From Solirubrobacter ginsenosidimutans (GTDB lineage Bacteria > Actinomycetota > Thermoleophilia > Solirubrobacterales > Solirubrobacteraceae): a stretch of DNA of 64,000 bases. Location: positions 35,025 to 99,024 of the forward strand of contig NZ_JAPDOD010000036.1 in NCBI RefSeq assembly GCF_027587205.1. The letters run 5' to 3'. A program made the position numbers and the translations under genes. The notes under the pieces were generated by a model. That model was given only the letters and a program-made list of their open reading frames with translations. It was not told the DNA's origin and searched no databases. Numbering within the stretch: the stretch's first letter is position 1; each line of letters opens with the position of its first letter. Shown here in pieces: positions 36,768-55,912 of the stretch.

Positions 36768-36926
36768 GGAACTCCCCCTCTCATTCAACTTTCAAGCGGC
36801 GCGGGAAGCTATCAGCCTTTTGTCATCTGTCACGCAAATCTTGATCGACCATCCGTCGAATGACACGAGTAACCGGTTCTTGGAGTGCCGGGTTCTGGAT
36901 CTCGGGCAAAAAATCGGCCGTCCCAT

Positions 36927-36943: not shown

Positions 36944-38608
36944 ATGCGCTCCCGTGTCATCGTCGCCGCACTCGCTCTCAGCCTCCTCACGGCCTCGCCC
37001 GCGGCGGCCGAGACCTACTTCGTCACCGGCACCGGCGACACGGGCGATCCAGTGGGTTGCGTGACCCCGGCGAGTTGCCCGACCCTGCGCGACGCCGTGC
37101 TCGAGGCCGGGCGCGACCCGAATGAGGACGCCATCTCGCTCCCCCCCGGGACCATCACGCTCACCGCCGGGCAGTTCCAGCTGACCTCGAATGTCGGCAT
37201 CGTCGGCGCGGGTGCTCGCGCGACGACGATTCAGGGTGCGAGCCCGGCCCGGGTATTCGACGTCGAGGGACCGGTCACCGTGAGCTTCTCGAACATGACG
37301 ATCGCCGGCGGAGCCCCGGTCTCCGGCGACGGCGGGAACATCCTCGTCGGTCAGGGCTCGCACGTCGGGCTCGTGTTCGCCCGCGTCACGGGCGGCACCG
37401 CCATCAGCGGCGGCGGCATCGCGAACTCCGGCACGCTGACGATCGCCAACAGCCTGATCGACCACAACACCGCGAGCACCGGCGGAGGCATCTACAACAA
37501 CGGCTCGCAGGGTGCGGCCGAGCTGGTCGTGGCCGACTCCACCGTCTTCTCCAACACGGTCAACGAGCAGGGCGGCGGAATCCTGTCCAGCGGCACCGGC
37601 AGCAACTCCGTCTCGATCCTGGCGTCGACGGTGGCGGGCAACACGCAGGGCGGGCTGTTGCTGCAAGGCGGGAGCTCGTCGGTCAACGCGTCGATCATCG
37701 CCAACAATCCGCAAGGCAACTGCTCCGGGACGATCGGCAGCGGGAGCCAGAACGTCGAGAACGCGGACAGTTGCGGCTTCGACCACGGCACCAACCGCGT
37801 CGGCATCGGCACGGGTCTGTCGGCGGCTCTCGTCAACGCGGGCGGCGGGACGGACGTGCTGACGATCCCCGCCGCGAGCCCGGCGGTCGACTACGTGACG
37901 CCGTGCCTCGTGACGATCGACCAGCGCGGCTACAACCGGGTTCCCAACGGGGAGTCCGCCTGCGACGCGGGCGCGTACGAGCTGTCGGGGGTCCCGCCAC
38001 AGGCTCCGCCGGAGCCGACCCCGACGCCCGAACCGCCGGTCCCCACCCCGGAGCCTCCGGTCGCGACTCCGATCGCCACGCCGGTGGCCACCCCCGTGAC
38101 GAACAAGTCCGTTGCCGCGGACGTGACCGGTGACGTGAAGATCAAGGACCCGAAGACGAAGAAGTTCATCCCGCTCAAGGACGGCGTGGTGCCCAACGGC
38201 TCGGAGATCGACGCGCGCGACGGCGAGATCACAATCACGACCACGACGCCGGGCGAGAAGGCCACGTTCTACGACGGCATCTTCAAGATCCAGCAGACGA
38301 AGAAGCTCACGACACTCACGCTGACGGAGGAGCTCACAGGCTGCAAGCAGGCCAAGGGCAAGGCGAGCGCGGCGGCGAAGAAGCCCAAGACCCGCAAGCT
38401 CTGGGGCGACGGCAAGGGCAAATTCCGCACCAAGGGCCAATACAGCGCCGCCACCGTCCGTGGCACCAAGTGGCTCGTCCAGGACGCGTGCACCACGACG
38501 ACCACCAGGGTCAGCACGGGCACCGTCCAGGTCGAGGACTTCGTCACGCACAAGCGGGTCCTGGTGACCAAGCGCAAGCCGTACGTCGCCCGGGCGAAGA
38601 AGAAGTAG
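36944..38608 (+). CDS. Surface-protein cluster gene 1: CSLREA beta-helix protein with FecR-like tail
   Basis: A 554-residue secreted protein. Signal peptide 1-22 (ASPAAA). Residues 23-60 carry a CSLREA-like motif (CPTLRDAVLEAG). A right-handed beta-helix (about 60-340) with Gly-rich turns (SGGGIANSGTLTIANSLIDH) ends in a choice-of-anchor Q motif (ACDAGAYEL). A Pro/Thr linker (about 350-385) leads to the cluster's common tail (386-554): FecR-like strands (GSEIDARDGEITI), Cys (TGCKQAK), RKLWGDGKGKFR, RGTKWLV, Cys (QDAC), and basic end RAKKK. It likely sits on or near the cell wall as an adhesin or matrix protein; this is inference. Start chosen at the signal peptide ATG. Confidence 0.85.
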   Translation: MRSRVIVAALALSLLTASPAAAETYFVTGTGDTGDPVGCVTPASCPTLRDAVLEAGRDPNEDAISLPPGTITLTAGQFQLTSNVGIVGAGARATTIQGASPARVFDVEGPVTVSFSNMTIAGGAPVSGDGGNILVGQGSHVGLVFARVTGGTAISGGGIANSGTLTIANSLIDHNTASTGGGIYNNGSQGAAELVVADSTVFSNTVNEQGGGILSSGTGSNSVSILASTVAGNTQGGLLLQGGSSSVNASIIANNPQGNCSGTIGSGSQNVENADSCGFDHGTNRVGIGTGLSAALVNAGGGTDVLTIPAASPAVDYVTPCLVTIDQRGYNRVPNGESACDAGAYELSGVPPQAPPEPTPTPEPPVPTPEPPVATPIATPVATPVTNKSVAADVTGDVKIKDPKTKKFIPLKDGVVPNGSEIDARDGEITITTTTPGEKATFYDGIFKIQQTKKLTTLTLTEELTGCKQAKGKASAAAKKPKTRKLWGDGKGKFRTKGQYSAATVRGTKWLVQDACTTTTTRVSTGTVQVEDFVTHKRVLVTKRKPYVARAKKK

Positions 38609-38649
38609 CCGCCGCAACTTCCAACGCGCCCGTGGTTTTTCACAGCGCC

Positions 38650-40377
38650 TTGACCGCCAAGCTCGCTCTCGCGACGGTCGTCCTCGCGCTGTTTCCGGCC
38701 GCGGCGAGCGCGGACACGTTCACGGTCACCGGGCCCGCCGACACCATCGGCGCCTCCGGCTGCACCGCGGCGCTGTGCACGCTCCGGAGCGCCATCAGCG
38801 CCGCCGCGGACAATGGGAACACGACCGATGACGTGATCGTGCTTCCTGCCGGGCAATACGCGGTCAGCACGCAGCTCGGGCAGTTGGCCATTCCCACCGG
38901 CGCGACGCGGATCACGATCCAAGGCGCAGGCGCGAATTCGACGACGATCCAACCTCCGGCGTCGATCCGCACGCTCACGATCAACAGCAACGCGAGCGTC
39001 ACGATCACCGGCGTCACCTTGCGCGGCGGGTCGGGGGCCAGCGGCCAGGGCGGGAACCTGCTGCTGTCGAGCCAGGCTTCGGCGACGCTCGACCGCGTGC
39101 GGATCACCGGTGGCAACGCGGCCCAAGGTGGCGGGGTCGCCGCGCTCGGCGCGACCGCGCTGACGATCCAGTCCAGCCTGATCGACGCCAACATCGCGAC
39201 CGGAACCGCGCTCACCGCGGCGGGCGGCGGCGTCTACGTCCAGGGCCAGACCTTCACGACGGCACTGACCGTCCAGGACTCGACGATCGTGTCCAACTCG
39301 GCGCGCAACGGCGGCGGGATCGCGATCGAGAACAACTCGGGCAAGCCGCCGGTGCTGCGCGGCGTGACCCTGACGCGCAACAACGCCCGCGCCGGCACCC
39401 CGAGCGGTGGGGCGGGCGGGATCTCGTCCGCCGCCACCAACGCCACCTTCCAAGGCTCGATCGTCGGCGGCAACACGTCCACCTTCAACTTCGGCCCCGG
39501 CCCGCAGGACCTGCTGTCCAACTGCTCGCTCGCCACCCCCGCCACGGATGCCGGCGGCAACGTCACGCCCGACACCGCCGACGCTTGCGGCCTCGGCGGC
39601 TCCCACGCCGATCCACACCTGGCGGCCGCGCTGGACTCCTCCGAGCCGCCCGCGCTGGCGCTCCCCGCGAACAGCCCGGCGGTGGACATCGCCGACTGCG
39701 CCGGGCGAACCGTCGATCAGCGCGGCGTTGCTCGCCCGCAGCTCAATGCGTGCGATGCCGGCGCCTACGAGTATCAGCCGCCGCCGGTGGAGCCGACACC
39801 GACGCCGACGCCCACAGAGACCCCGGCGCCGAGCCCGACCGCGACACCCACGCCCACGCCACCACCCGTGCGCAACGAGAGCGTCGGGGCCACGCCGGTG
39901 CGTGGCACGGTGCTGGTCAAGCTCCCGCGCACGTCGAAGTTCGTCCCGCTCGATGCGTCGGTGATCGGCAACGGGTCAGAGGTCGACACCCGCAAGGGCC
40001 GCGTGGAGATCACGACCTCGACCGGCGAGAAGGCCGTGTTCTACGAGGGCACCTTCAAGGTCTCCCAGTCCGGCGGTCTGACCACGTTGACCCTGACCGA
40101 GAAGCTCGCGCCGTGCCCGAAGGCGAAGTCGTCCGCGCGGGCGGCGGCGAAGAAGCCCAAGACGCGCAAGCTCTGGGGTGACGGCAAGGGCAAGTTCCGC
40201 ACCAAGGGCCAATACAGCGCCGCCACGGTCCGCGGGACCAAGTGGCTCGTGCAGGACGGATGCCGCTACACCAGGACGACGGTCGCCAGCGGCGTCGTGA
40301 GCGTCCGCGACGACGTGACCAAGCGCACGATCATCCGGCGCAAGGGCACGTCGTACACCGCCCGCCCACGCCGCTGA
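38650..40377 (+). CDS. Surface-protein cluster gene 2: CSLREA beta-helix protein with FecR-like tail
   Basis: A 575-residue secreted protein and the closest paralogue of gene 6 (46230-48941) in its N-terminal half. TTG at 38650 gives a 21-residue signal peptide (MTAKLALATVV...AAASA), matching the 22-23 residues of the other members; a GTG at 38632 is the alternative. CSLREA-like CTLRSAISAAADNG; beta-helix to about residue 365 (NGGGIAIENNSGKPPVLRGV); choice-of-anchor Q end (NACDAGAYEYQ). Pro/Thr linker 376-408; common tail 409-575 with APCPKAK, RKLWGDGKGKFR, RGTKWLVQDGC and end RPRR. It starts 41 bases after gene 1 with no visible promoter, so the two may be cotranscribed. Confidence 0.83.
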   Translation: MTAKLALATVVLALFPAAASADTFTVTGPADTIGASGCTAALCTLRSAISAAADNGNTTDDVIVLPAGQYAVSTQLGQLAIPTGATRITIQGAGANSTTIQPPASIRTLTINSNASVTITGVTLRGGSGASGQGGNLLLSSQASATLDRVRITGGNAAQGGGVAALGATALTIQSSLIDANIATGTALTAAGGGVYVQGQTFTTALTVQDSTIVSNSARNGGGIAIENNSGKPPVLRGVTLTRNNARAGTPSGGAGGISSAATNATFQGSIVGGNTSTFNFGPGPQDLLSNCSLATPATDAGGNVTPDTADACGLGGSHADPHLAAALDSSEPPALALPANSPAVDIADCAGRTVDQRGVARPQLNACDAGAYEYQPPPVEPTPTPTPTETPAPSPTATPTPTPPPVRNESVGATPVRGTVLVKLPRTSKFVPLDASVIGNGSEVDTRKGRVEITTSTGEKAVFYEGTFKVSQSGGLTTLTLTEKLAPCPKAKSSARAAAKKPKTRKLWGDGKGKFRTKGQYSAATVRGTKWLVQDGCRYTRTTVASGVVSVRDDVTKRTIIRRKGTSYTARPRR

Positions 40378-40393
40378 CCCAGACTTCCGTCGG

Positions 40394-40423
40394 TTGCAAA
40401 CCACCACCAACCCGAACTAATGT
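40394..40423 (+). promoter_or_regulatory. Promoter of surface-protein gene 3
   Basis: TTGCAA (40394-40399), 18-base spacer, TAATGT (40418-40423), then 11 bases to the ATG at 40435. Transcription would begin only a few bases before the start codon. Confidence 0.6.
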
Positions 40424-40434
40424 CGTCGCGCCGG

Positions 40435-42150
40435 ATGCGCCTTTCCGCTGTACCGCTCGCTCTCGTACTCGTGCTGCTCGCCGCCTGGCCGGCTTCCGCC
40501 GCGAACTTCACCGTCAATCGGACCGATGACGTGGCGGGCGCGGCTGGTTGTCCGCAGATCTGCACGCTCCGCAACGCGGTAAACGGCTCGCAGGACGCGT
40601 CGAACACGATCACGGTGCCGGCCGGCACCTACACGCTGACCAGCTCGATCACGATCCCGAAGACGATCACGATCACGGGCGCCGGCGCGTCGTCGACGAC
40701 GATCACCGGCAACAACACGTTCCGGATCTTCACGGTCAGCTCGGAACATGTCCTGCAGCTGACGGGCGTGACGGTGACCGGCGGCAACGCGACGACGGAC
40801 ACGGCGAATCCGTACGGCGGCGGCATCCTCGTCTCCGGCAGTGCGCGCCTGATCCTCACGGGGTCGCGGATCACCGGCAACTCCGCCCCGAGCGGTGGCG
40901 GCGGGATCGCGCTGCGAGGCGGGTTGATCGCCGGGGCCGTCTCCAGCGTCATCGACAACAACAGCACGACCGGCTCCGGTGGCGGCATCCTCGCGCAGCC
41001 GCTGCAGGCGGGCGGCAACGCCGGAACGCTCGCGCTCGTCGACTCCACGGTCGCCTTCAACTCCGCGGCGAGCGGCGGCGGCATCGCGTCGCGCGACAAC
41101 GCGAGCGCGGTCTCGCTCGAGCGCGTCACGGTCGCCGACAACCGCTCCACCACCGCCCCCGGCGGCGGGCTCTACATCACGCCGGCCCAGGCCAACTTCA
41201 CCGTCAAGTCCTCGATCGTCGCGCGCAACAGCGCGACCGCGCCGCGCACGGGCGTCACCGCGCCGTCGGACTGCGCCCCCTTCGCGCCGGCGAACTCCGG
41301 CCAGAACGTCGAGTCCGGCAGCGACTGCGGATTCACCAACGGCAGCCAGAACGCCGACGCCGGGCTCGCGCCGCAACTCGTCACGATCAACGGGACCTAC
41401 GTGCTGCCGCTGCTCGCGGGGAGCCCGGCGATCGATCGCGCGGTCGACTGCGGCGCCGGCACGCAAGATCAGACCGGCACCGCGCGACCGGTGGGTGCCG
41501 CGTGTGATTCCGGGGCGTTCGAGTACATCCCGCCGCCCCCGGAGCCGACACCCACGGCCGCTCCCGCCCCGCAGCCGACCGTCGCACCCACGCCGGCGCC
41601 GACGGCCACCCCCACGCCCACCCCGGTCTACGGGAAGACGGTCGTCGGCGGCAGCCTCAGCGGGACGATCCTCGTGCGCGACCCAGGGAGCAAGACGTTC
41701 AAGCTGCTGCCCGCGGTGCAGGCCATCAAGGTCGGCTCGACCGTCGACGCGCGCAAGGGCGTCGTGACGCTCACGTCCGTGCCCAAGGCCGGCGGCAAGC
41801 CCGAGACCGCGAAGTTCTACGCCGGGATGTTCAAGGTCACGCAGTCGGGCGGGATCACGACGCTCACGCTCAACGAGCCACTGGCACCGTGCGCGCCGGC
41901 CAGATCGGCCCGCGCGGCGGCGAAGAAGCCCAAGACGCGCAAGCTCTGGGGTGACGGGAAAGGCAAGTTCCGGACGAAAGGCCAATACAGCGCCGCGACC
42001 GTTCGCGGTACCAAGTGGCTCGTGCAGGACGGATGCCGCTACACCAGGACGACGGTCGCAACCGGCGTGGTGGGCGTCCGCGACGACGTGACAAAGCGCA
42101 CGGTTATCCTGCGCAAGGGCAAGAGCTACACCGCGAGACCGAGGCGATAA
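40435..42150 (+). CDS. Surface-protein cluster gene 3: CSLREA beta-helix protein with FecR-like tail
   Basis: A 571-residue secreted protein. I chose ATG 40435 rather than an in-frame ATG at 40420 because the latter lies in the -10 element and 40435 gives a 22-residue signal peptide (MRLSAVPLALV...WPASA). CSLREA-like CTLRNAVNGS; beta-helix (about 55-345) with SGGGIASRDNASAVSLERVT; choice-of-anchor Q end (AACDSGAFEY). Pro/Thr/Ala linker 366-398; common tail 399-571: GSTVDARKGVVTL, Cys in APCAPAR, RKLWGDGKGKFR, RGTKWLVQDGC, end RPRR. The tail DNA shares a 47-base identical stretch with gene 2. Gene 4 starts 3 bases after its stop, so both form one unit. Confidence 0.86.
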   Translation: MRLSAVPLALVLVLLAAWPASAANFTVNRTDDVAGAAGCPQICTLRNAVNGSQDASNTITVPAGTYTLTSSITIPKTITITGAGASSTTITGNNTFRIFTVSSEHVLQLTGVTVTGGNATTDTANPYGGGILVSGSARLILTGSRITGNSAPSGGGGIALRGGLIAGAVSSVIDNNSTTGSGGGILAQPLQAGGNAGTLALVDSTVAFNSAASGGGIASRDNASAVSLERVTVADNRSTTAPGGGLYITPAQANFTVKSSIVARNSATAPRTGVTAPSDCAPFAPANSGQNVESGSDCGFTNGSQNADAGLAPQLVTINGTYVLPLLAGSPAIDRAVDCGAGTQDQTGTARPVGAACDSGAFEYIPPPPEPTPTAAPAPQPTVAPTPAPTATPTPTPVYGKTVVGGSLSGTILVRDPGSKTFKLLPAVQAIKVGSTVDARKGVVTLTSVPKAGGKPETAKFYAGMFKVTQSGGITTLTLNEPLAPCAPARSARAAAKKPKTRKLWGDGKGKFRTKGQYSAATVRGTKWLVQDGCRYTRTTVATGVVGVRDDVTKRTVILRKGKSYTARPRR

Positions 42151-42153
42151 ACG

Positions 42154-44394
42154 ATGCGCTGGAACGGATTCCTGGCGACCACGATCGCCGCGCTGCTGGT
42201 TGCCGCGGCACCCGCGGCGGCCGACACCTTCACCGTGACTGGGACGGGCGACGACACCGGGTCGTGCGCGTCGGGCCAGTGCACGACGATCCGCGCGGCG
42301 CTCACCGCGGCCGCGCAGGCCGCCGGGGCCGACGAGGTCGACCTGGCGGCCGGCACGTATCAGCTCACGCAGGGCCCGCTGCTGCTCACTTCCGACATCA
42401 CGCTGCGCGGCGACAGCGCACGCACCACGACCCTCTACGCGGCGCCGGTGTCGCGCGTGATCCAGATCAACGGCGGGTCCGCCTCGATCAGCAACCTGAC
42501 GGTCGCCGGCGGCGTCGCGACCGACGCCGCGGGCTACTTCGGCGGGAACATCGTCGCCGCCAGCGCCACCGTGACGCTCGATCACATCCGCAGCACCGGC
42601 GGTCGCGCCTACAGCGGCGGCGGTATCGCCAACCGCAACGGCACGATGACCATCTCGAACAGCCTGATCGACCACAACTCCGCCCCGGACGGCGGCGGTG
42701 ACAGCGGCGGCATCCTCAACTTCGGCGGCGACGGCCTCGCCGCGGCGAACCTGACGATCACGAACTCGACGGTCGCCTTCAACTCCGCGCGGGTGGGCGG
42801 CGGCATCATGCAGTGGGGCGGCGATCAGGACTCCGTGACGCTCCAGCGCGTGACGCTCGCGCGCAACACCGCCACCGCCGGCGCCCCGGGCGGGTTGAAC
42901 ATCAGCCAGGGCAGCGCACACGTGAGCGGCTCGATCGTGGCGTCCAACCAAGGACCGATCGGCGAGTCCAACTGCGCGGGCACGGGCGTGGTCAGCGACG
43001 GGTTCAACGTCGACTCGGGAGTTGACTGCAACTTCGCGCAGCAGACGGACCGCAGCGATCAGAGCCCCGGCCTCGACACCGACCTGCGCAACTACGGCGG
43101 CGAGACGGACGTGTTGCCGTTCGACACGCCGAGCCCGGCCGAGAACATCGGCGGGACGTGCTCGCCGCTCGACCAGACAGGCTTCGCCCGGTCCGCTCCG
43201 TGTGACGCGGGCGCTTGGGAGTACCGCGTCAACCAGAAGATCACCATCAGCGACCCGCCCAGCGGGCCGACGAGCAGCCAGACCGCGACGTTCTCCTTCG
43301 ACTCGGACGCCGGGCCGGACTACGCCTGCCGCCTGATCCGGCCCAGCGACCCGAAGCCGGCGTTCTCCGGCTGCGACTCGGGGATCACCTACAGCAACCT
43401 GGCGGAGGGCGCGTACCGCTTCGAGGTGCGCCCGGCGGGCGCGACCGACCTCAGCCAGGGCGACTTCGCGACGTTCACGGTCGACCTGACGGCGCCGGAG
43501 ACGACGATCGACTCGCCCGGGCCGACCGAGACGATCGGCACCGACCCGACGTTCTCCTTCAGCTCCAGCGAGCCGAACGCGCGCTTCGAGTGCAGCTTCG
43601 ACCAGGGGCCGGTCGAGTTCACCGCCTGCGAATCGCCGCGGACGTACAACGACCTCCCGCTCGATCAGACCTACACGTTCCGCGTGCGCGCGCTCGACGC
43701 CGCGAACAATGCCGACGCCACGCCGGCCACGCGGACGTTCACCGTCGGGGCCGCCGTTCCGACGCCGACGCCGACCCCGACCCCCACGGCCGTTGCGACG
43801 ACCTCGCCCACTCCGGAGCCGACCGCGACGGCGATCCCGACCGCGACCGCCACGCCGACCGCGACTCCGACACCGCCGCCGGTGGCGAACACGAGCGTCG
43901 AGGTCGAGCCGGAGAGCGGGACCGTCCTGGTCAAGCCGAAGGGCGCCAAGACCTTCGTGCCGCTGCGCGCGGGCGTCTTGCTCAACGGGGCGGAGATCGA
44001 TACCCGCCACGGGGTCGTCGTCATCACCACGTCGACGGGCGAGAAGGCGACCTTCTACGCCGGCCTGTTCCTCGTCAGCCAGGCGGGTGGCATCACGACG
44101 CTGACGCTGAGCGAGAAGCTCACCGGCTGTCCGAAGGCCAAGAAGTCCTCGGCCAGCGCCGCCGCCAAGAAGCCGAAGACCCGCAAGCTGTGGGGCGACG
44201 GCAAGGGCAAGTTCCGCACCAAGGGCCAGTACAGCGCCGCGACCGTCCGCGGGACGAAGTGGCTCGTGACGGACACCTGCACCAGCACCATCACGCGGGT
44301 CGCGGAGGGGGTCGTGGACGTCCGCGACGAGGTCAAGAAGAAGACCTTCGTGCTGCGCAAGGGCAAGTCCCACACGGCGCGGGCCAAGAAATAG
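42154..44394 (+). CDS. Surface-protein cluster gene 4: beta-helix, Ig-like modules, FecR-like tail
   Basis: A 746-residue secreted protein. Signal peptide 1-23 (APAAA); CSLREA-like region is weaker (CTTIRAALTAA). Beta-helix to about 345 (SGGGIANRNGTMTISNSLID), choice-of-anchor Q end (APCDAGAWEYR). Two Ig-like modules (about 360-540), with the pattern FxCSFD...FTACESP..Y..L....YTFRVRALD...N.D.TPA. Pro/Thr linker 543-577; common tail 578-746: GAEIDTRHGVVVI, TGCPKAK, RKLWGDGKGKFR, RGTKWLVTDTC, end RAKK. It appears coupled to gene 3 (3-base gap). Function inferred as surface attachment or matrix. Confidence 0.86.
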   Translation: MRWNGFLATTIAALLVAAAPAAADTFTVTGTGDDTGSCASGQCTTIRAALTAAAQAAGADEVDLAAGTYQLTQGPLLLTSDITLRGDSARTTTLYAAPVSRVIQINGGSASISNLTVAGGVATDAAGYFGGNIVAASATVTLDHIRSTGGRAYSGGGIANRNGTMTISNSLIDHNSAPDGGGDSGGILNFGGDGLAAANLTITNSTVAFNSARVGGGIMQWGGDQDSVTLQRVTLARNTATAGAPGGLNISQGSAHVSGSIVASNQGPIGESNCAGTGVVSDGFNVDSGVDCNFAQQTDRSDQSPGLDTDLRNYGGETDVLPFDTPSPAENIGGTCSPLDQTGFARSAPCDAGAWEYRVNQKITISDPPSGPTSSQTATFSFDSDAGPDYACRLIRPSDPKPAFSGCDSGITYSNLAEGAYRFEVRPAGATDLSQGDFATFTVDLTAPETTIDSPGPTETIGTDPTFSFSSSEPNARFECSFDQGPVEFTACESPRTYNDLPLDQTYTFRVRALDAANNADATPATRTFTVGAAVPTPTPTPTPTAVATTSPTPEPTATAIPTATATPTATPTPPPVANTSVEVEPESGTVLVKPKGAKTFVPLRAGVLLNGAEIDTRHGVVVITTSTGEKATFYAGLFLVSQAGGITTLTLSEKLTGCPKAKKSSASAAAKKPKTRKLWGDGKGKFRTKGQYSAATVRGTKWLVTDTCTSTITRVAEGVVDVRDEVKKKTFVLRKGKSHTARAKK

Positions 44395-44473
44395 CCGTGA
44401 AAGTGGACGATCGTTGGCGTAGCCACGCGACGGTGCTCGGTTAACCTCGACCAGAGGCCCGAGGAAGGAACGG

Positions 44474-46159
44474 ATGCGCTGGAAGTGGATGACGATCGGG
44501 ATCGCGGCCGCCTGTCTGGCGTTCGCTCCCGCGGCGCACGCCCAGGCCGATCCCGTGGTCTTCACCGCCGGCCCGAGCGGGCCGACGAACAACCGCTCCC
44601 CGAGCTTCGGGTTCACGGCCGCGTTCCCCACGGACTGCCGCGTGGAACCGAACCCCGCGAACGTCTCGTGCACCTCGCCATACCAGCTCACTGACCTGCC
44701 CGACGGCGACTACCGGCTCGTCGTCTCGCCGTCCGACACCCACGACCCCGCGCTCAGCGCCACGCGGTCGTTCACCGTCGACACGGTCCCGCCGGCGCCG
44801 CCGGCGATCACGTCACCGGCCGACAACGCCGTGGTCGGCGCATCCGTCGTGCTCGACGGGACGCTCGCCGCGGACGCCACGTCCGTGCGCGTCTCCGACA
44901 ACGACGTCGACAAGGGAGCCGCGACGCTAGGCGCCGACGGGACGTGGCAGCTGAAGCTCGACGGCCTCGCCGACGGGACGCACGTCCTCACGGCCACGGC
45001 ATTCGACGCGGCGGGCAACGTCTCGGCGCCGGCGACGCGCACGGTGCGCGTCGATACGATCGCCCCCGCGGTCACGATCACTTCCGCGCCGCCGAGCCTG
45101 ACCAACGCGACGCCGGTGACGATCGCCTTCACGGCGTCCGAGGCCGCGACGTTCACCTGCTCGGTCGCGCATTCGACAGACGTTCCGGCACCGCAGGACT
45201 GCTCGTCGCCCTTCGTCGTCCCCACCCCGGACGACGGCGAGTACCGCGTCGAGATCACGGCCAAGGACGCCGCCGGCCTGTCGAGCGAGCCGGTCCCGGT
45301 CACCGTCGTCGTCGACCGCTCCGCGCCGGCCGCGGTCGCCCCGGCCCGTTCGGAGACGACGTTCACCTTCGCTCCCGCGGAGAGCGGCAGCTCCTTCCAG
45401 TGCCGGCTCGAGGGGCCGTCGGGCGACAGCGGCTTCCGCGCCTGCACGTCGCCGAAGGCCTATCCCGATCTGCCACCCGGCAGCTACCGCTTCACGCTGC
45501 GAACGTTCGACGAGGCCGGCAACCACTCCGACGCTGCGCCGACCGCCTTCACGGTCGCCGCTCCGCCCGTCGTCGCGATCCCGGAAGCGGCGCCCACTCC
45601 CGCCCCGGAACCGGTCGCGATCGCCCCGCCGACCCCGACGCCGCAGGCCGGCGAGAGCGTCGTCGTGCGCGCGTCGAGCGGGACGATCCTCGTGCGCAAG
45701 CCGGGAACGACCGAGTTCGTGGCGATCTCGCGGTCGTCGGCGGTCCCGCTCGGCTCGGAGATCGATGCCCGTAAGGGCAAGGCCGTCCTCACCGTCGAGC
45801 CCGCCGACGGCAAGGCCTTCGAACGCGCGACGTTCTACGCCGGGCTCTTCGTGGTGCAGCAGGTCAGTGGCTACCTCGAGCTCACGCTCAGCGAGACGCT
45901 CGCGCCCTGCAAGAGGACGAAGGCGCCCGCGGCGAACCCCAAGTCCCGCAAGCTCTGGGGCGACGGCAAGGGCAAGTTCCGCATCAAGGGCAGGTCCGGA
46001 ACGGCGACGACCGGTGGTGGCAAGTGGCTGGTCGAGGACTCCTGCGACGGGACGTTCACGCGAGCCTCGCAGGGCGTCGTATCGGTCCGCGACAGCGCGC
46101 GGCGCAAGACGGTGCTGCTCCGCGCGGGCCGCAGCTACCTCGCCAAGCCGAAGAAGTAA
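44474..46159 (+). CDS. Surface-protein cluster gene 5: Ig-like protein without beta-helix, FecR-like tail
   Basis: A 561-residue secreted protein, the odd member: signal peptide 1-24 (APAAHA) is followed directly by four Ig-like modules (about 25-375), one of the Ig type that reads LADGTHVLTATAFDAAGNVS. There is no CSLREA motif or beta-helix. A short Pro/Ala linker (376-391) leads to the common tail (392-561), the most diverged of the seven: GSEIDARKGKAVL, Cys in APCKRTK, RKLWGDGKGKFR kept, but the following segment reads RIKGRSGTATTGGGKWLVED with Cys in EDSCDGT. The basic end is KPKK. It has its own ribosome site (GAGGAAGGAAC). Confidence 0.85.
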   Translation: MRWKWMTIGIAAACLAFAPAAHAQADPVVFTAGPSGPTNNRSPSFGFTAAFPTDCRVEPNPANVSCTSPYQLTDLPDGDYRLVVSPSDTHDPALSATRSFTVDTVPPAPPAITSPADNAVVGASVVLDGTLAADATSVRVSDNDVDKGAATLGADGTWQLKLDGLADGTHVLTATAFDAAGNVSAPATRTVRVDTIAPAVTITSAPPSLTNATPVTIAFTASEAATFTCSVAHSTDVPAPQDCSSPFVVPTPDDGEYRVEITAKDAAGLSSEPVPVTVVVDRSAPAAVAPARSETTFTFAPAESGSSFQCRLEGPSGDSGFRACTSPKAYPDLPPGSYRFTLRTFDEAGNHSDAAPTAFTVAAPPVVAIPEAAPTPAPEPVAIAPPTPTPQAGESVVVRASSGTILVRKPGTTEFVAISRSSAVPLGSEIDARKGKAVLTVEPADGKAFERATFYAGLFVVQQVSGYLELTLSETLAPCKRTKAPAANPKSRKLWGDGKGKFRIKGRSGTATTGGGKWLVEDSCDGTFTRASQGVVSVRDSARRKTVLLRAGRSYLAKPKK

Positions 46160-46190
46160 GCCGTGCCCGAATGATCGGACCGTTCGGCTC

Positions 46191-46220
46191 TTGCCCAACG
46201 GTCAATGGCCCGGTTAGGGT
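46191..46220 (+). promoter_or_regulatory. Promoter of surface-protein gene 6
   Basis: TTGCCC (46191-46196), 18-base spacer, TAGGGT (46215-46220), then 9 bases to the ATG at 46230, consistent with a leaderless transcript. Confidence 0.6.
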
Positions 46221-46229
46221 CGCTCGCAG

Positions 46230-48941
46230 ATGAGCGTGCGCACCGTAGCTCTATTGGGGCTCGCCATGCTCGTGACCGCGGCACCGGCCCAGGCCGCGAC
46301 GTTCACGGTGACGACGACGGCGGACACGCCGGGCGCCGCGGGATGCACCGCCACGCTCTGCACGGTCCGTACGGCGATCGCCGCGGCGGCGGCCAACGGC
46401 AACACCGCCGACGACGTGATCGTCCTCGCCGCCGGCAGCACCTACGCGGTCACCGCCGCGTCCGGCGCGCTGACCGTGCCGAACGGCGCGACGCGGATCA
46501 CGATCCAGGGCGCGGGCGCGAACTCGACCGCGATCCAGTCGCCCGGGACGATCCGCGCGCTCGTCATCGGCAGCTCGGCCGGCGTCACCGTCACGGGGGT
46601 CACCCTGCGCGGCGGCACGATCACCTCCGGGCAAGGCGGCAACGTGCTGGTCTCCAGCCAGGCGACCGCGACCTTCAACCGCGTCCGGGTGACCGGCGGC
46701 AGCGCGCCGCAGGGCGGCGGGATCGGCGTGCTCGGCGCGGGTTCGCTGACGATCCAGTCGAGCCTGATCGACGCCAACACCGCGACCGGCACCGCGCTCA
46801 CCGCGGCGGGCGGCGGCATCTACGTCCAGGGCCAGACGACCGCGACGCCCATCACGATCCAGGACTCGACGATCGCGTCGAACTCGGCGCGCAACGGCGG
46901 CGGGATCGCGATCGAGAACAACACCGGGCAGGCGCCGGTGCTGCGCGGTGTGACGCTGGCCCGCAACAACGCCCGCGCCGGCACGCCGAGCGGCGGGGCG
47001 GGCGGGATCTCGTCGGCGGCCACCAACGCCCGCTTCCAGGGCTCGATCGTGGCCGGCAACACGTCGACGTTCAACTTCGGCCCTGGCCCGCAGGACTTGC
47101 CTTCCAACTGCGCGCTCGCCTCCGCGGCCACGGATGACGGCGGCAACGTGACGCCCGACAGCGCCGACCAGTGCGGCCTCGGCGGCGTCCACACCGACCC
47201 GCAGCTCGCCGCGGCGCTGGACACTTCCCAGCCACCCGCGCTCACCATCCCGTCGAACAGCTCCGCGGTGGACGTCGCCGCGTGCACGCCACGCACCGTC
47301 GACCAGCGCGGCGTCACCCGCCCGCAGGGCACGGCGTGCGACGCCGGCGCCTACGAGGTCGACCAGGCGCCGACGGTGACGATCACCTCCGGCCCGACCG
47401 GGACGGTGGCGTCGGCGACCGCGTCGTTCGGGTTCTCGACGACCGAGCCGGGCGTGTCGCTGCAGTGCCGGATGACCGGTCCGGGGCAGTCCGGGGCGTT
47501 CGCCGCCTGCACGAGCCCGACGGCGCAGAGCTACAGCGGGCTCGGGAGTGGCGCCTACACGTTCTCGGTCCGCGCGCTGGACGGAACCTTCACGAACCCG
47601 CCGATCGCGTCCCGTTCGTTCACCGTCGACGTGACCGCGCCGGACACGACGCTCATACCGATCGCCTCGCCGACCAACGACACGACGCCGACCTTCAGCT
47701 TCTCCTCCGAGGCGGGAGCGACGTTCCAGTGTCGCGTCGACACCGCGGCGTTCGCGACCTGCACCTCGCCGCGGACGGTGCCGGCGCTCTCCCAGGGCAC
47801 GCACACGTTCCAGGTGCGCGCGGTCGACGCGCTCGGCAACGCCGACGCCTCCCCGGCGAGCCAGACCTTCGTCGTCGACACGACCGCGCCGAACACGACG
47901 ATCACCGGCAACCCTCCCGCGACGACCGGCGACAACACCCCCACCTTCACGTTCACCGCGACCGAGACCGGCGCGTTCGAGTGCGCCGTGGACGACGACG
48001 CGCTCACCGTGTGCACCTCGCCGTTCACGACCGCACCGCTCGAGCGCGGCCTGCACACCTTCACCGTCCGCGCCGTCGACACGGCCGGCAACGCCGACGC
48101 CTCCCCGGCGACCGTCTCCTTCTTCATGGACGCGACCCCACCCGAGACGACGCTCGCCGGGGACGGCCCGTTCGAGTTCACCTCGCCCGTGACCGGAGCG
48201 ACGTTCGAATGCTCGCTCGACGACGCGGCCTTCGCGCCGTGTGCGTCTCCGGTCGCGTTCGACGGCCTGGCGGTGGGCGAGCACACGTTCACGGTCCGCG
48301 CCGTCGACGCCTTCGGCAACGTCGACGCGACGCCCGAGCGGCGGACGTTCACGGTGCTCCCGCCGGTCGTGCTGCCGGCGGCGACCGCGACCCCCAGCCC
48401 GACGGCCACTCCCGCGCCGAGCCCGGTCGCCGGGAAGAGCGTCGGCGCCAAGCCGGTGGGCGGCACGGTGCTCGTCAAGCTCAAGGGCGCCAAGACGTTC
48501 GAGCCGCTCAGCCCTTCCGTGATCGCCAACGGCGCCGAGGTCGACGCGCGCAAGGGGATCGTCGAGATCACGCGCTCCGACGGCGGCGTCGCCAAGTTCT
48601 ACGACGGCATCTTCAAGCTCTCGCAGTCCGGCGGCATCACCACGCTCACGCTGTCGGAGAAGCTCACGGGCTGCCCGAAGGCCAAGCAGTCCTCGCCGGC
48701 GCGGGCCGCGGCCGCGAAGCCGAAGACCCGCAAGCTCTGGGGCGACGGCAAGGGCAAGTTCCGCACCAAGGGCCAGTACAGCGCCGCCACCGTCCGCGGC
48801 ACCAAGTGGCTCGTCCAGGACACGTGCACCACCACGCTCACGCGCGTGGTGCGCGGCGTGGTCGCCGTCGAGGACTTCGCCAAGCGCAAGACGATCCTCC
48901 TCAAACAGGGCAAGCGCTACACCGCCAGGCCTAAGCGGTGA
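46230..48941 (+). CDS. Surface-protein cluster gene 6: CSLREA beta-helix, four Ig-like modules, FecR-like tail
   Basis: A 903-residue secreted protein. Signal peptide 1-22 (APAQA); CSLREA-like CTVRTAIAAAAANG; beta-helix to about 365, very similar to gene 2 (shared NNARAGTPSGGAGGISSAAT and NTSTFNFGPGPQDL); choice-of-anchor Q end (TACDAGAYEV). Four Ig-like modules (about 378-710) with the pattern FxCxVD..xFxxCTSP....L..G.HTFxVRAVD..GN.DASPA. Linker 712-733; common tail 734-903: GAEVDARKGIVEI, TGCPKAK, RKLWGDGKGKFR, RGTKWLVQDTC, end RPKR. It looks like gene 2 with Ig modules inserted. Confidence 0.87.
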   Translation: MSVRTVALLGLAMLVTAAPAQAATFTVTTTADTPGAAGCTATLCTVRTAIAAAAANGNTADDVIVLAAGSTYAVTAASGALTVPNGATRITIQGAGANSTAIQSPGTIRALVIGSSAGVTVTGVTLRGGTITSGQGGNVLVSSQATATFNRVRVTGGSAPQGGGIGVLGAGSLTIQSSLIDANTATGTALTAAGGGIYVQGQTTATPITIQDSTIASNSARNGGGIAIENNTGQAPVLRGVTLARNNARAGTPSGGAGGISSAATNARFQGSIVAGNTSTFNFGPGPQDLPSNCALASAATDDGGNVTPDSADQCGLGGVHTDPQLAAALDTSQPPALTIPSNSSAVDVAACTPRTVDQRGVTRPQGTACDAGAYEVDQAPTVTITSGPTGTVASATASFGFSTTEPGVSLQCRMTGPGQSGAFAACTSPTAQSYSGLGSGAYTFSVRALDGTFTNPPIASRSFTVDVTAPDTTLIPIASPTNDTTPTFSFSSEAGATFQCRVDTAAFATCTSPRTVPALSQGTHTFQVRAVDALGNADASPASQTFVVDTTAPNTTITGNPPATTGDNTPTFTFTATETGAFECAVDDDALTVCTSPFTTAPLERGLHTFTVRAVDTAGNADASPATVSFFMDATPPETTLAGDGPFEFTSPVTGATFECSLDDAAFAPCASPVAFDGLAVGEHTFTVRAVDAFGNVDATPERRTFTVLPPVVLPAATATPSPTATPAPSPVAGKSVGAKPVGGTVLVKLKGAKTFEPLSPSVIANGAEVDARKGIVEITRSDGGVAKFYDGIFKLSQSGGITTLTLSEKLTGCPKAKQSSPARAAAAKPKTRKLWGDGKGKFRTKGQYSAATVRGTKWLVQDTCTTTLTRVVRGVVAVEDFAKRKTILLKQGKRYTARPKR

Positions 48942-48956
48942 CTGACCGTTTGGGCC

Positions 48957-48986
48957 TTGCTTGATGCTCCAAGTTCGGGTTAGTGT
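48957..48986 (+). promoter_or_regulatory. Promoter of surface-protein gene 7
   Basis: TTGCTT (48957-48962), 18-base spacer, TAGTGT (48981-48986), then 8 bases to the ATG at 48995. Confidence 0.6.
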
Positions 48987-48994
48987 CGCTTGAG

Positions 48995-51900
48995 ATGCGC
49001 TTGGGCGCCGCTTTCATCGCCGTGCTCGCAGCGCTGGCGCTCGCGTCCCCGGCTCGAGCCGACGTTTTCACGGTCACCAACGGCAGCAGCGATACGCCGA
49101 CCGGTTGTGCGGGCACGACCTGCCCGAGCCTGCGCGCAGCGATCGCCGCGGCGGAGATCACACGGCCCGCCGACACGATCAACGTCCCCGCCGGCACGAT
49201 CAACATCAACAACGATCTCGCCGTCGGGTCGGACATGACGATCGTCGGCACCAGCGCCCGCACGAACATCATCGACGGGGGCGCGAAGTACCGCGGGCTG
49301 CGGGTCGCGGCCGGGGCGACCGTCTCCCTCAGCCACTTCACGATCCGCAACGGCGCCGCGGGGCAGGCCGGCTCCAACGACGGCGGCGGCGTGCTCAATC
49401 AGGGCAGCCTGGTGCTGGACTCCGTGCACATCACGGGCAGCCAGGCGGCGCGCGGCGGCGGCGTGGCGAACCTGCAGAACGGGATCACCCAGATCGCCCA
49501 CAGCCTGATCGACGGCAACACCGCGACCACGACGGGCGGCGGCCTGGTCAACGTCGGCAACACCGAGACGCAGCCGATCACCGGCATCGCGCTCACCGAC
49601 TCGACGGTCTTCAACAACACCGCCGCGGCCGGGGGCACCGGCGGCATCGCCGCGGTCAACCTCGGCGGCATCCTCTCGGTGGTCCGCTCGACGGTGGCCG
49701 ACAACGTCGGCGGGACCGGCGCGGCCGCCGGCGGCATCTCGAGCACCGCGGCAGGCCGGACGTCGATCGCGGGGAGCATCCTCGCGCGCAACAAGATCGG
49801 CACCGCGACGGTCAACTGCAACGCGGTCAAGCCCACCGACGCCGGCGCCAACGTCGAGGACAACGACACCTGCGGCTTCAACTTCACGGGCAATCCGCAG
49901 CTCGACACGAAGCTCGCGAGCGCGGGCGGCGACGTCGACGTCCTCCCGATCAGCGGGGCCAGCCCCGCGGTCGATCGCCTGGCGGTGGGCAGCAACTGCG
50001 CCGCGGGCACGCTCGATCAGCGCGGTCTGTACCGCCCGCAGGGCACGGCGTGCGACTCCGGCGCGTATGAGCTCGACGTGCCCGCCACCTACACCATCAC
50101 GAGCGGGCCGAACGGGACGACGATCACCACCGACAGCGTCCAGTTCGACTTCAGCTCGACCGATCCGAGCGCCGACCCGGTCTGCCAGCTCACCGGACCC
50201 GGCCAGTCCGCGGGCTTCGTCACGTGTTACAAGTCCAACGCGGCGCTCTACACCGGCCTGGGCAACGGGTCCTACACGTTCTCGGTGCGCGATTCGGCGT
50301 TCCCGAGCGGTCCTGTGGCGTCCCGGTTGTTCACCGTCGCGGCACTCGACACGACGATCACCGGCGGGCCGAACGGGCCGACCAACGACACCACGCCGAC
50401 GTTCACCTTCACCGGGGCGGGCGGCGCGGTGAGCTTCCAATGCCGGGTCGACGGCGCGCAGTTCGCGGCCTGCAGCACGCCGTTCACCACCGTCCCGCTC
50501 GCCCAGGGCTCGCACACCTTCGAGGTCCGCGCGCAGTCGGCCGCGGGTGGCGTGGACAACACGCCGGCGTCGCGCTCGTTCACGGTCGACACGACGCCAC
50601 CCGACACGAACATCACCGGCGGACCGACGGGGACGGTCGCCTCGACCTCGGCCACGTTCACCTACACGGCGACCGAGGCGGGCTCGACCTTCCAGTGCGC
50701 CCTCGACGGCGCCGCGTTCGCCGCCTGCCCCGCCGGCTACACCGGCCTCGCACAAGGCGCGCACACCTTCCAGGTCCGCGCGACGGACGGCGTCGGCAAT
50801 GTCGACGCCTCGCCCGCCACGCAATCGTGGACGGTCGACACCGTCGCGCCCAACACGACGATCAACAGCGGGCCGAGCGGGAACGTGTCCTCAACCTCGG
50901 CGACGTTCACCTTCAGCTCGACCGAGGCGGGCTCGACCTTCCAATGCGCCCTCGACGGCGCCGCCTTCGCCGCCTGCCCCGCCGGCTACACCGGCCTCGC
51001 ACAAGGCGCGCACACCTTCCAGGTCCGCGCGACGGACGCCGTCGGCAATGTCGATGCCTCGCCCGCCACGCAATCGTGGACGGTCGACACCGTCGCGCCC
51101 AACACCACGATCAACAGCGGCCCGACGGGCGCGGTCGCCTCGACCTCGGCGACGTTCACCTTCAGCTCGACCGAGGCGGGCTCGACCTTCCAGTGCGCCC
51201 TCGACGGCGCAGCGTTCGCCGCCTGCCCCGCCGGATACACCGGCCTCGCACAAGGCGCGCACACCTTCCAGGTCCGCGCGACGGACGCCGTCGGCAATGT
51301 CGATGCCTCGCCCGCCACGCAATCGTGGACGGTCGACACCGTCGCGCCCAACACCACGATCAACAGCGGCCCGACGGGCGCGGTCGCCTCGACCTCGGCG
51401 ACGTTCACCTTCAGCTCGACCGAGGCGGGCTCGACCTTCCAGTGCGCCCTCGACGGCGCAGCGTTCGCCGCCTGCCCCGCCGGATACACCGGCCTCGCAC
51501 AAGGCGCGCACACCTTCCAGGTCCGCGCCATCGACGCGGCCGGGAACACCGACGCGTCCCCGGCCACGCAATCGTGGACGGTCGACACCGTCGCGCCCAA
51601 CACCGACATCACCGGCGGGCCGACCGGCAGCGTGTCCTCCACGAGCGCGACCTTCACCTACACCTCCACCGAGGCGGGCTCGACCTTCCAGTGCTCGCTC
51701 GACAGCGCCGCTTTCGCCGCGTGCCCCGCCGGATACACCGGCCTAGCCCAGGGCTCGCACACCTTCGCCGTCCGCGCGACCGACGGCGTCGGCAACATCG
51801 ACGCCTCACCCGCCACGCGTACCTGGACCGTCGACACCGTCGCGCCTAACACCGACATCACCGGCGGCCCGACCGGCACGGTCGCCTCCACCTCCGCCGC

Positions 51901-53956
51901 CTTCACCTACACCTCCACCGAAGCGGGCTCGACCTTCCAGTGCTCGCTCGACAGCGCCGCGTTTGCCGCGTGCCCCGCGAGCTACACCGGGCTCGCGCAG
52001 GGCGCCCATACGTTCCAGGTCAGAGCGGTCGATGCCGCCGGCAACACGGACGCCACCCCCGCCTCGCGCGGCTGGACCGTCGATACCGCGGCCCCTGACA
52101 CGACGATCACTGTCGGTGCCGACAACCTCGGCAACGACCCGACACCGTCGTTCTCCTTCACCTCGAGCGAGGCCGGCTCGACGTTCCAATGCCGGATCGA
52201 TGGCGCGCAGTTCGCGAGTTGCACGTCGCCGTTCACCTCCGCGCCGCTCAGCGACGGCAGTCACACGTTCAACGTCCGCGCCACCGACGCGGTCGGGAAC
52301 ACGGATGCCACTCCGGCCGCGCAGACGTTCGTGATCGACACCACGACGCCGAACACCGACGTGACCAGCAGTCCCGGCGCGGCGACCAACGACACCACGC
52401 CGAGCTTCTCGTTCACGGGCACCGGAGGAGCAGCGTCCTTCCAATGCCGCGTCGATGGGACCGCCTACGCCGCGTGTACCTCGCCGTTCACTGCGGGACC
52501 GCTCACTGCCGGCCAACACACGGTGGACATCCGCGCGCTCAACGCGGCGGGCACGCCCGATCCCTCGCCTGCCTCGGTCGTGTTCGTCGTCGACCTGACG
52601 GCGCCCAACACGTCCCTGACGCCGATTGCGACTCCGACGAACGATGCCACGCCGAGCTTCATGTTCAGCGCCAACGAGGCCGGCGCGACGTTCGAGTGCC
52701 GCGTCGACGGGGGAGCGTTCACGAGTTGCGACTCGCCCTTCACGACGGCAACGCTCGGCGCGGGTACGCACACGTTCGACGTGCGCGCCACCGATCCGGC
52801 CGGCAACGTCGATCCCACCCCCGCGTCGCAGACCTTCACCCTCGATACCGGCGCCCCCAGCACCACGATCAGCGCCGGCCCGTCCGGCGCGACGAACGAC
52901 GCCACGCCGACGTTCACGTTCGTCTCCGACGAGCCGGGCTCCACGTTTGAGTGCCAGATCGACGCCGCGGCGTTCGTGGACTGCACCTCGCCGTTCACCT
53001 CGCCGCAGCTCACCGACGGCGTGCACACCTTCGAGGTCCGCGCGACCGATGTGGCCGGCAACCTCGACGCGACGCCGGCCAGCCGCGCCTTCACGGTCGA
53101 CACCACACCCCCGGCCGCGCCCGCCGTCGTCTCCGGACCGGATGGCCCGACCACCGACAGTTCGCCGGCGTTCAGCTTCTCGGCCGCCGACGCGGTCTCG
53201 ACGGCGTGCAAGCTCGACGGGCCCGGCCCGGTGACGGGCGAGTTCGGCGCGTGCACCTCGCCGAAGACGTTCGGTGCGCTCGCACCCGGCGACTACGTCT
53301 TCTCCGTCCGTTCGGTCGACGCCGCCGGCAACGCCCAGACGACGCAGCGCGCGTTCACGGTCACGGTGCCGCAGCAAGCCACGCCGGCCCCCACGCCCAC
53401 GCCGTCGGTGACGCCCACCGGGACCCCGACCCCGACGCCGGTCGCGAACCAGAGCGTCGACATCACACCCGTCTCGGGCACCGTCTTGATCAAGCTCCCG
53501 GGCTCGAAGGTGTTCGTGAAACTCAGTCCCTCGCTGATCAAGAACGGCGCCGAGGTCGATGCCCGCAAGGGCGTGGTCGAGATCACCCGCTCCGACGGCG
53601 GCGTCGCCAAGTTCTACGACGGCATCTTCAAGCTCAGCCACTCCGGCGGATTCACCGTGCTCACGTTGACGGAGAAGCTCACCGGCTGCCCGAAGCCCAA
53701 GAAGTCCTCGGCGAGCGCCGCGGCCAAGAAGCCGAAGACGCGCAAGCTGTGGGGCGACGGCAAGGGGAAGTTCCGCACCAAGGGCCAGTACTCCGCTGCC
53801 ACCGTCCGCGGCACCAAGTGGCTCGTCACCGACACCTGCACCACCACCGTGACCAAGGTCGCGACGGGGGTGGTCGAGGTTCAGGACTTCGCCAAGAAGA
53901 AGAAGGTCCTGATCAAGAAGGGCAAGAGCTACACCGCACGTCCGAAGAAGAAGTAG
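48995..53956 (+). CDS. Surface-protein cluster gene 7: beta-helix, about 13 Ig-like repeats, FecR-like tail
   Basis: A 1653-residue secreted protein, the largest of the cluster. Signal peptide 1-22 (ASPARA); CSLREA-like CPSLRAAIAAAE; beta-helix to about 350; choice-of-anchor Q end (TACDSGAYEL). About 13 Ig-like modules span 361-1460. Six consecutive ones (83 residues each, pattern STEAGSTFQCALDGAAFAAC then PAGYTGLAQGAHTFQVRA) repeat at exactly 249 bases. Pro/Thr linker 1461-1484; common tail 1485-1653: GAEVDARKGVVEI, TGCPKPK, RKLWGDGKGKFR, RGTKWLVTDTC, end RPKKK. The rod-like repeats suggest a stalk displaying the beta-helix. ATG 48995 fits the promoter spacing of its paralogues. One base separates it from the convergent DUF559 gene. 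Confidence 0.88.
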   Translation: MRLGAAFIAVLAALALASPARADVFTVTNGSSDTPTGCAGTTCPSLRAAIAAAEITRPADTINVPAGTININNDLAVGSDMTIVGTSARTNIIDGGAKYRGLRVAAGATVSLSHFTIRNGAAGQAGSNDGGGVLNQGSLVLDSVHITGSQAARGGGVANLQNGITQIAHSLIDGNTATTTGGGLVNVGNTETQPITGIALTDSTVFNNTAAAGGTGGIAAVNLGGILSVVRSTVADNVGGTGAAAGGISSTAAGRTSIAGSILARNKIGTATVNCNAVKPTDAGANVEDNDTCGFNFTGNPQLDTKLASAGGDVDVLPISGASPAVDRLAVGSNCAAGTLDQRGLYRPQGTACDSGAYELDVPATYTITSGPNGTTITTDSVQFDFSSTDPSADPVCQLTGPGQSAGFVTCYKSNAALYTGLGNGSYTFSVRDSAFPSGPVASRLFTVAALDTTITGGPNGPTNDTTPTFTFTGAGGAVSFQCRVDGAQFAACSTPFTTVPLAQGSHTFEVRAQSAAGGVDNTPASRSFTVDTTPPDTNITGGPTGTVASTSATFTYTATEAGSTFQCALDGAAFAACPAGYTGLAQGAHTFQVRATDGVGNVDASPATQSWTVDTVAPNTTINSGPSGNVSSTSATFTFSSTEAGSTFQCALDGAAFAACPAGYTGLAQGAHTFQVRATDAVGNVDASPATQSWTVDTVAPNTTINSGPTGAVASTSATFTFSSTEAGSTFQCALDGAAFAACPAGYTGLAQGAHTFQVRATDAVGNVDASPATQSWTVDTVAPNTTINSGPTGAVASTSATFTFSSTEAGSTFQCALDGAAFAACPAGYTGLAQGAHTFQVRAIDAAGNTDASPATQSWTVDTVAPNTDITGGPTGSVSSTSATFTYTSTEAGSTFQCSLDSAAFAACPAGYTGLAQGSHTFAVRATDGVGNIDASPATRTWTVDTVAPNTDITGGPTGTVASTSAAFTYTSTEAGSTFQCSLDSAAFAACPASYTGLAQGAHTFQVRAVDAAGNTDATPASRGWTVDTAAPDTTITVGADNLGNDPTPSFSFTSSEAGSTFQCRIDGAQFASCTSPFTSAPLSDGSHTFNVRATDAVGNTDATPAAQTFVIDTTTPNTDVTSSPGAATNDTTPSFSFTGTGGAASFQCRVDGTAYAACTSPFTAGPLTAGQHTVDIRALNAAGTPDPSPASVVFVVDLTAPNTSLTPIATPTNDATPSFMFSANEAGATFECRVDGGAFTSCDSPFTTATLGAGTHTFDVRATDPAGNVDPTPASQTFTLDTGAPSTTISAGPSGATNDATPTFTFVSDEPGSTFECQIDAAAFVDCTSPFTSPQLTDGVHTFEVRATDVAGNLDATPASRAFTVDTTPPAAPAVVSGPDGPTTDSSPAFSFSAADAVSTACKLDGPGPVTGEFGACTSPKTFGALAPGDYVFSVRSVDAAGNAQTTQRAFTVTVPQQATPAPTPTPSVTPTGTPTPTPVANQSVDITPVSGTVLIKLPGSKVFVKLSPSLIKNGAEVDARKGVVEITRSDGGVAKFYDGIFKLSHSGGFTVLTLTEKLTGCPKPKKSSASAAAKKPKTRKLWGDGKGKFRTKGQYSAATVRGTKWLVTDTCTTTVTKVATGVVEVQDFAKKKKVLIKKGKSYTARPKKK
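50603..52096 (+). repeat. Six 249-bp tandem repeats inside surface-protein gene 7
   Basis: Units begin at 50603, 50852, 51101, 51350, 51599 and 51848, each exactly 249 bases (83 codons, one Ig-like module). Units 2-4 are nearly identical: about 293 bases from 50987 match 51236-51528 without a difference that I can see. Flanking modules at the protein level are related but diverged in DNA and of slightly different length. Confidence 0.9.

Positions 53957-54919: not shown

Positions 54920-55912
<993 letters not shown>

Follow-up and report, generated by a model that had tools for sequence, protein, structure and literature searches.

A seven-gene array with a common C-terminal tail

The window, a 64,000-nucleotide stretch of Solirubrobacter ginsenosidimutans (Thermoleophilia, Actinomycetota; contig NZ_JAPDOD010000036.1; 70.9% GC) that was analysed as a whole, contains seven co-directional plus-strand open reading frames (ORFs) arranged head to tail from 36944 to 53956 (Table 1), with intergenic gaps of 41, 42, 3, 79, 70 and 41 bases in order. 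An initial annotation had described them as seven consecutive genes for signal-peptide proteins that share one tail, and this is upheld: the tails are 169-174 residues long, those of the other six genes share 50-70% identity with the gene 2 tail, the N-termini of all seven proteins resemble signal peptides by eye, and a Pro/Thr/Ala-rich linker (previously noted as Pro/Thr) lies between head and tail in every gene. For gene 2 we chose a start at about 38650, which is uncertain. A profile scan of the six-frame ORFs of the window returned the seven tails only, with no eighth tail protein, and a scan for promoters and terminators gave no signal above shuffled sequence.

The differing N-terminal parts that were claimed (beta-helix, beta-helix plus Ig, and Ig only) agree with the Pfam and NCBIfam matches of the heads. 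Pfam beta-helix scores above cut-off in the heads of genes 2 and 3, the Ig-like signal of gene 4 is Y_Y_Y (E 0.0067, below cut-off), and the head of gene 5 consists of Ig-like domains without choice_anch_Q. Genes 2 and 6 share 75% identity in their heads, and by their sequences the array genes are evidently duplicates.

Table 1. Genes of the array and their tails (FecR-type domains), in window coordinates
Feature	Position	Strand	Composition	Remark
Gene 1	36944..38608	+	signal peptide, choice_anch_Q (beta-helix) head, linker, tail	head by choice_anch_Q alone
Tail 1	38096..38605	+		
Gene 2	38650..40377	+	signal peptide, beta-helix/choice_anch_Q head, linker, tail	start uncertain
Tail 2	39868..40374	+		stretch used for second AlphaFold model
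Gene 3	40420..42150	+	signal peptide, beta-helix/choice_anch_Q head, linker, tail	
Tail 3	41626..42147	+		
Gene 4	42154..44394	+	signal peptide, choice_anch_Q head with weak Ig-like signal, linker, tail	
Tail 4	43885..44391	+		query of first protein search (1058 matches)
Gene 5	44474..46159	+	signal peptide, Ig-like head, linker, tail	
Tail 5	45650..46156	+		divergent, GGGKWLV
Gene 6	46230..48941	+	signal peptide, beta-helix/choice_anch_Q, Ig-like repeats, linker, tail	
Tail 6	48432..48938	+		
Gene 7	48983..53956	+	signal peptide, choice_anch_Q, about 12 Ig-like repeats, linker, tail	
Tail 7	53444..53953	+		

Fold and conservation of the tail

The structure prediction proposed with the initial annotation gave confident AlphaFold models of two tails, which have the same fold as PDB 6ovk (juxta-membrane subdomain of PupR), 4m0n and 4m0h (BDI_1681) over 106-110 residues, with a root-mean-square deviation of 2.0-2.5 Å. 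The closest solved folds are those of regulators: one is PupR together with PupB, its partner, and another a putative anti-sigma factor. The models give good support to a single all-beta domain with a divergent FecR fold. The tail had been described as two halves, of which only the first was FecR-like; the FecR link itself stands, but the halves are predicted to form one domain, and the FecR model matches it at the RGTKWLV region.

Sequence searches against solved structures gave no credible match for the tails, and no Pfam or NCBIfam model matches them above its cut-off. Among Pfam families, FecR (PF04773) matches the largest number of tails, always under its curated cut-off of 24 bits (9 of 34 tails, best E 0.013, and 3 of 11, best E 0.0066; 15.7 bits and E 0.021 for tail 2), and Lsa33 (NF047849) is the NCBIfam model that most tails match, likewise below cut-off (26 of 34, best E 1.3e-5, and 8 of 11, best E 1.2e-4). 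Searching six related genomes with PF04773 at E up to 1 gave 28 matches, 22 of them inside tail copies (coordinates compared by hand) and confined to FecR positions 43-97. The six non-tail matches include a clear FecR protein of Svornostia, to which the tail profile aligns over 59 columns with RGT on RGT (hhalign, E 3.2e-4, probability 39%). This Svornostia abyssi protein (L094:2198-3484, plus strand; FecR E 5.7e-15) looks exported, is not of the tail type, and is a useful bridge between canonical FecR domains and the tails, which differ from the former in falling below the Pfam cut-off and in having an invariant Cys pair and an LWGxGxGxFxT block.

The module was called undescribed, which holds in that it passes no Pfam or NCBIfam cut-off, but not in that it is a divergent FecR-fold domain. 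No description of it was found in literature on FecR with surface or anchor (nearest topic, iron in Bacteroidetes), on Solirubrobacter surface proteins (nearest topic, ice-binding proteins) or on FecR with LysM, and no literature was found on the FecR domain with Thermoleophilia, most subscription papers lying outside the coverage. In any case the tails form a clear family for Pfam and NCBIfam to register.

The N-terminal half of both tail models also resembles PDB 5ix9, entitled 'Cell surface anchoring domain', over half a domain only and with weak scores. 5ix9 is probably the retention domain of an RTX ice adhesin; on these models, FecR may have a deep evolutionary link to the retention domains of adhesins. 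No retention family is among the NCBIfam matches of the tails.

Motifs listed in the initial annotation recur: RKLWGDGKGKFR, KWLV and both cysteines are invariant in all seven array tails, and RGTKWLV is present in six, gene 5 having GGGKWLV. The most conserved patch is LWGxGxGxFxT...ATVRGTxW. Of 236 tails with at least 140 residues, every one has the second Cys and 235 have the first; in the 34-tail set, both are present in 32 tails, neither in two, and one alone in none. In that set the cysteines are kept or lost as a pair, as expected if bonded, and the tail is probably clamped by one disulfide, which would join Cys83 to Cys132 in the numbering of tail 2. The two tails of the set that lack both cysteines are L050:6001-6552 and L070:1226-1687.

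Among the seven array tails, the proportion of synonymous differences (pS) is 0.39-0.47 in all parts, while that of nonsynonymous differences (pN) reaches 0.33-0.38 in both the N-terminal half and the C-terminal end but only 0.04-0.08 across the core (tail 2 residues 97-132; the lower value without gene 5). The resulting pN/pS of 0.10-0.20 in the core versus 0.74-0.84 in the rest of the tail is rough, both values being uncorrected and partly saturated, but this sequence pattern indicates a constrained core, under selection beyond chance or recent copying. The data do not support recent gene conversion as an explanation for the identical core, pS being similar in the core (0.39-0.40) and its flanks (0.43-0.47). 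Some homogenisation is evident: 10 of 34 tails, versus 3 of 33 heads, have their best match inside their own genome, as do all five tails of Candidatus S. pratensis.

Distribution and modular architecture

The profile search proposed earlier found the tail far outside this strain. A contig search gave 73 tail loci, of which 60 have titles of Solirubrobacter or other Solirubrobacterales/Thermoleophilia, eight name the phylum only, and five come from metagenome-assembled genomes (MAGs) of other groups, titled Gemmatimonadales, Frankiaceae, Acidimicrobiia, Bifidobacterium breve and Isosphaeraceae. These off-class labels are suspected to reflect misbinning. The suspicion for B. breve arises because its contig (L065), which carries a tail gene, has 74% GC, and it is probably a misbinned Thermoleophilia contig; the other four have GC fractions of 0.64-0.72, GC being the sole check. 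At E 1e-6, matches occur in at least 37 of the 199 genomes sampled from the class to which S. soli belongs and in at least 4 of 396 from its phylum, all four also in the class sample; both counts are lower bounds, with only 17 or 8 candidates scored in most listed genomes. The spread is class-limited on these data.

Each of four Solirubrobacter genomes has 11-17 matches to the tail profile, some partial, and arrays of 7, 6, 5, 4 and 5 tail genes occur in five other genomes (S. soli, S. phytolaccae, Candidatus S. pratensis, S. sp. CPCC 204708 and a fifth). The array is syntenic: the ORF at 54920-55822, which reads as thiazole synthase ThiG, has a match beside all five, and that at 30307-30936 beside four, the left flank of S. 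soli lying outside the data. Between gene 7 and its counterpart in S. soli, identity is 81% over the tail and 67% over the head. A mobile origin was rejected: tail 4 has no match in phage records, among plasmid records gene 4 has two matches (one to its tail, from Miltoncostaea, and one to its head), and viral contigs gave one locus with a 22-residue match.

Searches with tail 4 and with a distant member returned 1058 and 107 protein matches; architectures were counted in 226 listed proteins, comprising the best 120 of the 1058 and 106 distant ones. In 213 of the 226, no more than 15 residues follow the tail. Heads, by precomputed Pfam labels, include beta-helix, Big_13, FG-GAP, FN3/phosphoesterase, DUF11, RTX, PKD, RCC1 and NHL. 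Two profile matches occur in 15 listed proteins, of which 12 look like tandem copies, one (P0026) like two fused genes, and two like one tail in pieces; the 12 are DUF11-type proteins (P0093, P0121-P0131) with two tandem tails at the C-terminus. Conversely, choice_anch_Q occurs at 47 places in the six genomes, 27 of them in tail-bearing frames by coordinates; the 20 others have no tail at the C-terminus and read as having LamG-like, other beta-rich or no endings. The proposal of a swappable head on a fixed tail is sustained by these unrelated heads with the tail and choice_anch_Q heads without it. The tail profile gave 1436 matches from 7998 candidates scored; among the 120 listed, two pass a crude signal test for stand-alone tails and one (P0334) looks as if it has a signal peptide, and 20 N-termini that were read begin mostly inside a head, linker or tail. 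The tail is apparently a stock C-terminal module of exported proteins in Thermoleophilia, a much reused branch of the FecR fold.

It is very improbable that the tail is a folding or stability cap only, inherited by duplication and without a ligand. The duplicate array genes and the existence of the same kinds of head without a tail would fit such a cap, but unrelated heads carry the tail, a linker separates it from the heads in the window, and its core is far more constrained than the remainder.

A possible role in retention on the cell envelope

By patterns and hydropathy, without a trained predictor, 208 of the 226 listed proteins have a hydrophobic stretch near the N-terminus, none has LPXTG/LAXTG or a transmembrane (TM)-like stretch in its last 60 residues, and 10 have a lipobox-like motif, leaving 216 without. 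With no covalent or membrane anchor in most, the basic FecR-fold domain that closes these acidic exported proteins remains as the candidate holder. Acidic heads contrast in charge with the basic tails, whose net charge is at least +10 in 121 of 122 close tails and 79 of 114 distant tails. The signal peptide would bring about export, the head, acidic and of beta-helix, Ig-like, FG-GAP, PKD or another type, would project on the flexible linker, and the cation-rich FecR domain would dock non-covalently on an acidic cell-envelope component, the docked tail keeping the head with the cell. We give about an even chance to the tail being such a holder on an acidic envelope polymer; the docking, its target and the retention on the cell are all what we infer. 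Anchoring, as first proposed, is plausible from the C-terminal place, the charge contrast and the scarcity of other anchors. In three relatives LysM follows the tail, which is thus not always the last or only holding element.

Several observations weigh against retention by the tail. Thirteen of the 226 tails are not C-terminal, three being followed by LysM as just noted and one by RTX repeats; 14 of the 226 proteins have a TM-like stretch after residue 60; and each of the six related genomes carries a sortase gene and thus has another route for anchoring. Net charge is below +10 in 35 of the 114 distant tails (lowest -4). A linker with at least 40% P+T over 40 residues is present before 105 of 120 close tails but only 26 of 106 distant ones, and so belongs to the close branch. 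The FecR sequence matches never reach the curated cut-off, and an unrelated Pfam family, GXGXG, scores as well on tail 2 (E 0.017 versus 0.021 for FecR).

The same charge data, and the same absence of a membrane or covalent anchor in most proteins, would also suit proteins that are released, their cationic FecR-type domain binding an outside target (exopolysaccharide, extracellular DNA, a mineral or a plant surface) as an adhesion module instead of an anchor on the cell's own envelope. That the NCBIfam model matched by most tails, albeit below cut-off, is the surface adhesin model Lsa33 speaks for this alternative, and LysM behind the tail in three relatives, which points to the cell wall, speaks against it; we consider it possible but unlikely.

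FecR is known mainly as the envelope part of iron-signalling regulators (PMC7186176). Docking of the tail on one specific protein in that manner, as a sensor or scaffold, would accord with the regulators among the closest solved folds, and the conserved patch could be the binding site, yet we judge it improbable. No Pfam family for a cytoplasmic anti-sigma part with a TM helix before FecR was found in the seven proteins, which instead have a signal-peptide-like start and extracellular-type heads; unlike FecR regulators, they end with the domain and have no anti-sigma part, TM part or STN subdomain. The TonB plug family PF07715 is in none of the six related genomes (3 of 14 control genomes), and 11-17 tail matches per genome would hardly be needed for one regulator. 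Nor does a dedicated partner gene stand out beside the loci: 44 neighbour clusters recur in at least 4 of the 73 loci, and among the 25 viewed the largest resemble, by eye, antisense shadow ORFs or orthologous flanking regions.

The tail resembles C-terminal sorting domains such as LPXTG, PEP-CTERM and those of type IX secretion in its C-terminal place after varied heads, including choice_anch_Q, and differs in being a 169-residue FecR fold without LPXTG/LAXTG or a TM-like stretch near the end. Retention by the tail would explain surface display without LPXTG signals in a little-studied soil lineage and would provide a display tag needing no sortase.

Envelope use of FecR outside iron signalling has precedents. 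The Leptospira protein Lsa33, called a surface adhesin, is exported with a FecR domain as the tail proteins are, but it is a lipoprotein with FecR as its described part (PMC3444417), whereas here the domain ends long proteins. LysM+FecR proteins (COG4254) occur in a Burkholderia biofilm operon, and three tail proteins likewise have LysM; the Burkholderia protein is encoded by a single gene beside a histidine kinase, and no swappable heads are described for it (PMC5192318).

Two ORFs sit between the array and flanks that are otherwise conserved in related genomes. That at 31458-36788 (minus strand; 1776 residues) adjoins the array, and inspection of its sequence by eye suggests a protein of the ThuA/sugar-dehydrogenase type that has PKD domains. 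The other, at 53958-54848 (minus strand), matches ORFs beside the arrays of loci L089 (66-69%) and L092 (31%), has a paralogue inside the window at 28084-28950, and belongs to a type with similar ORFs at 5 of the 73 tail loci.
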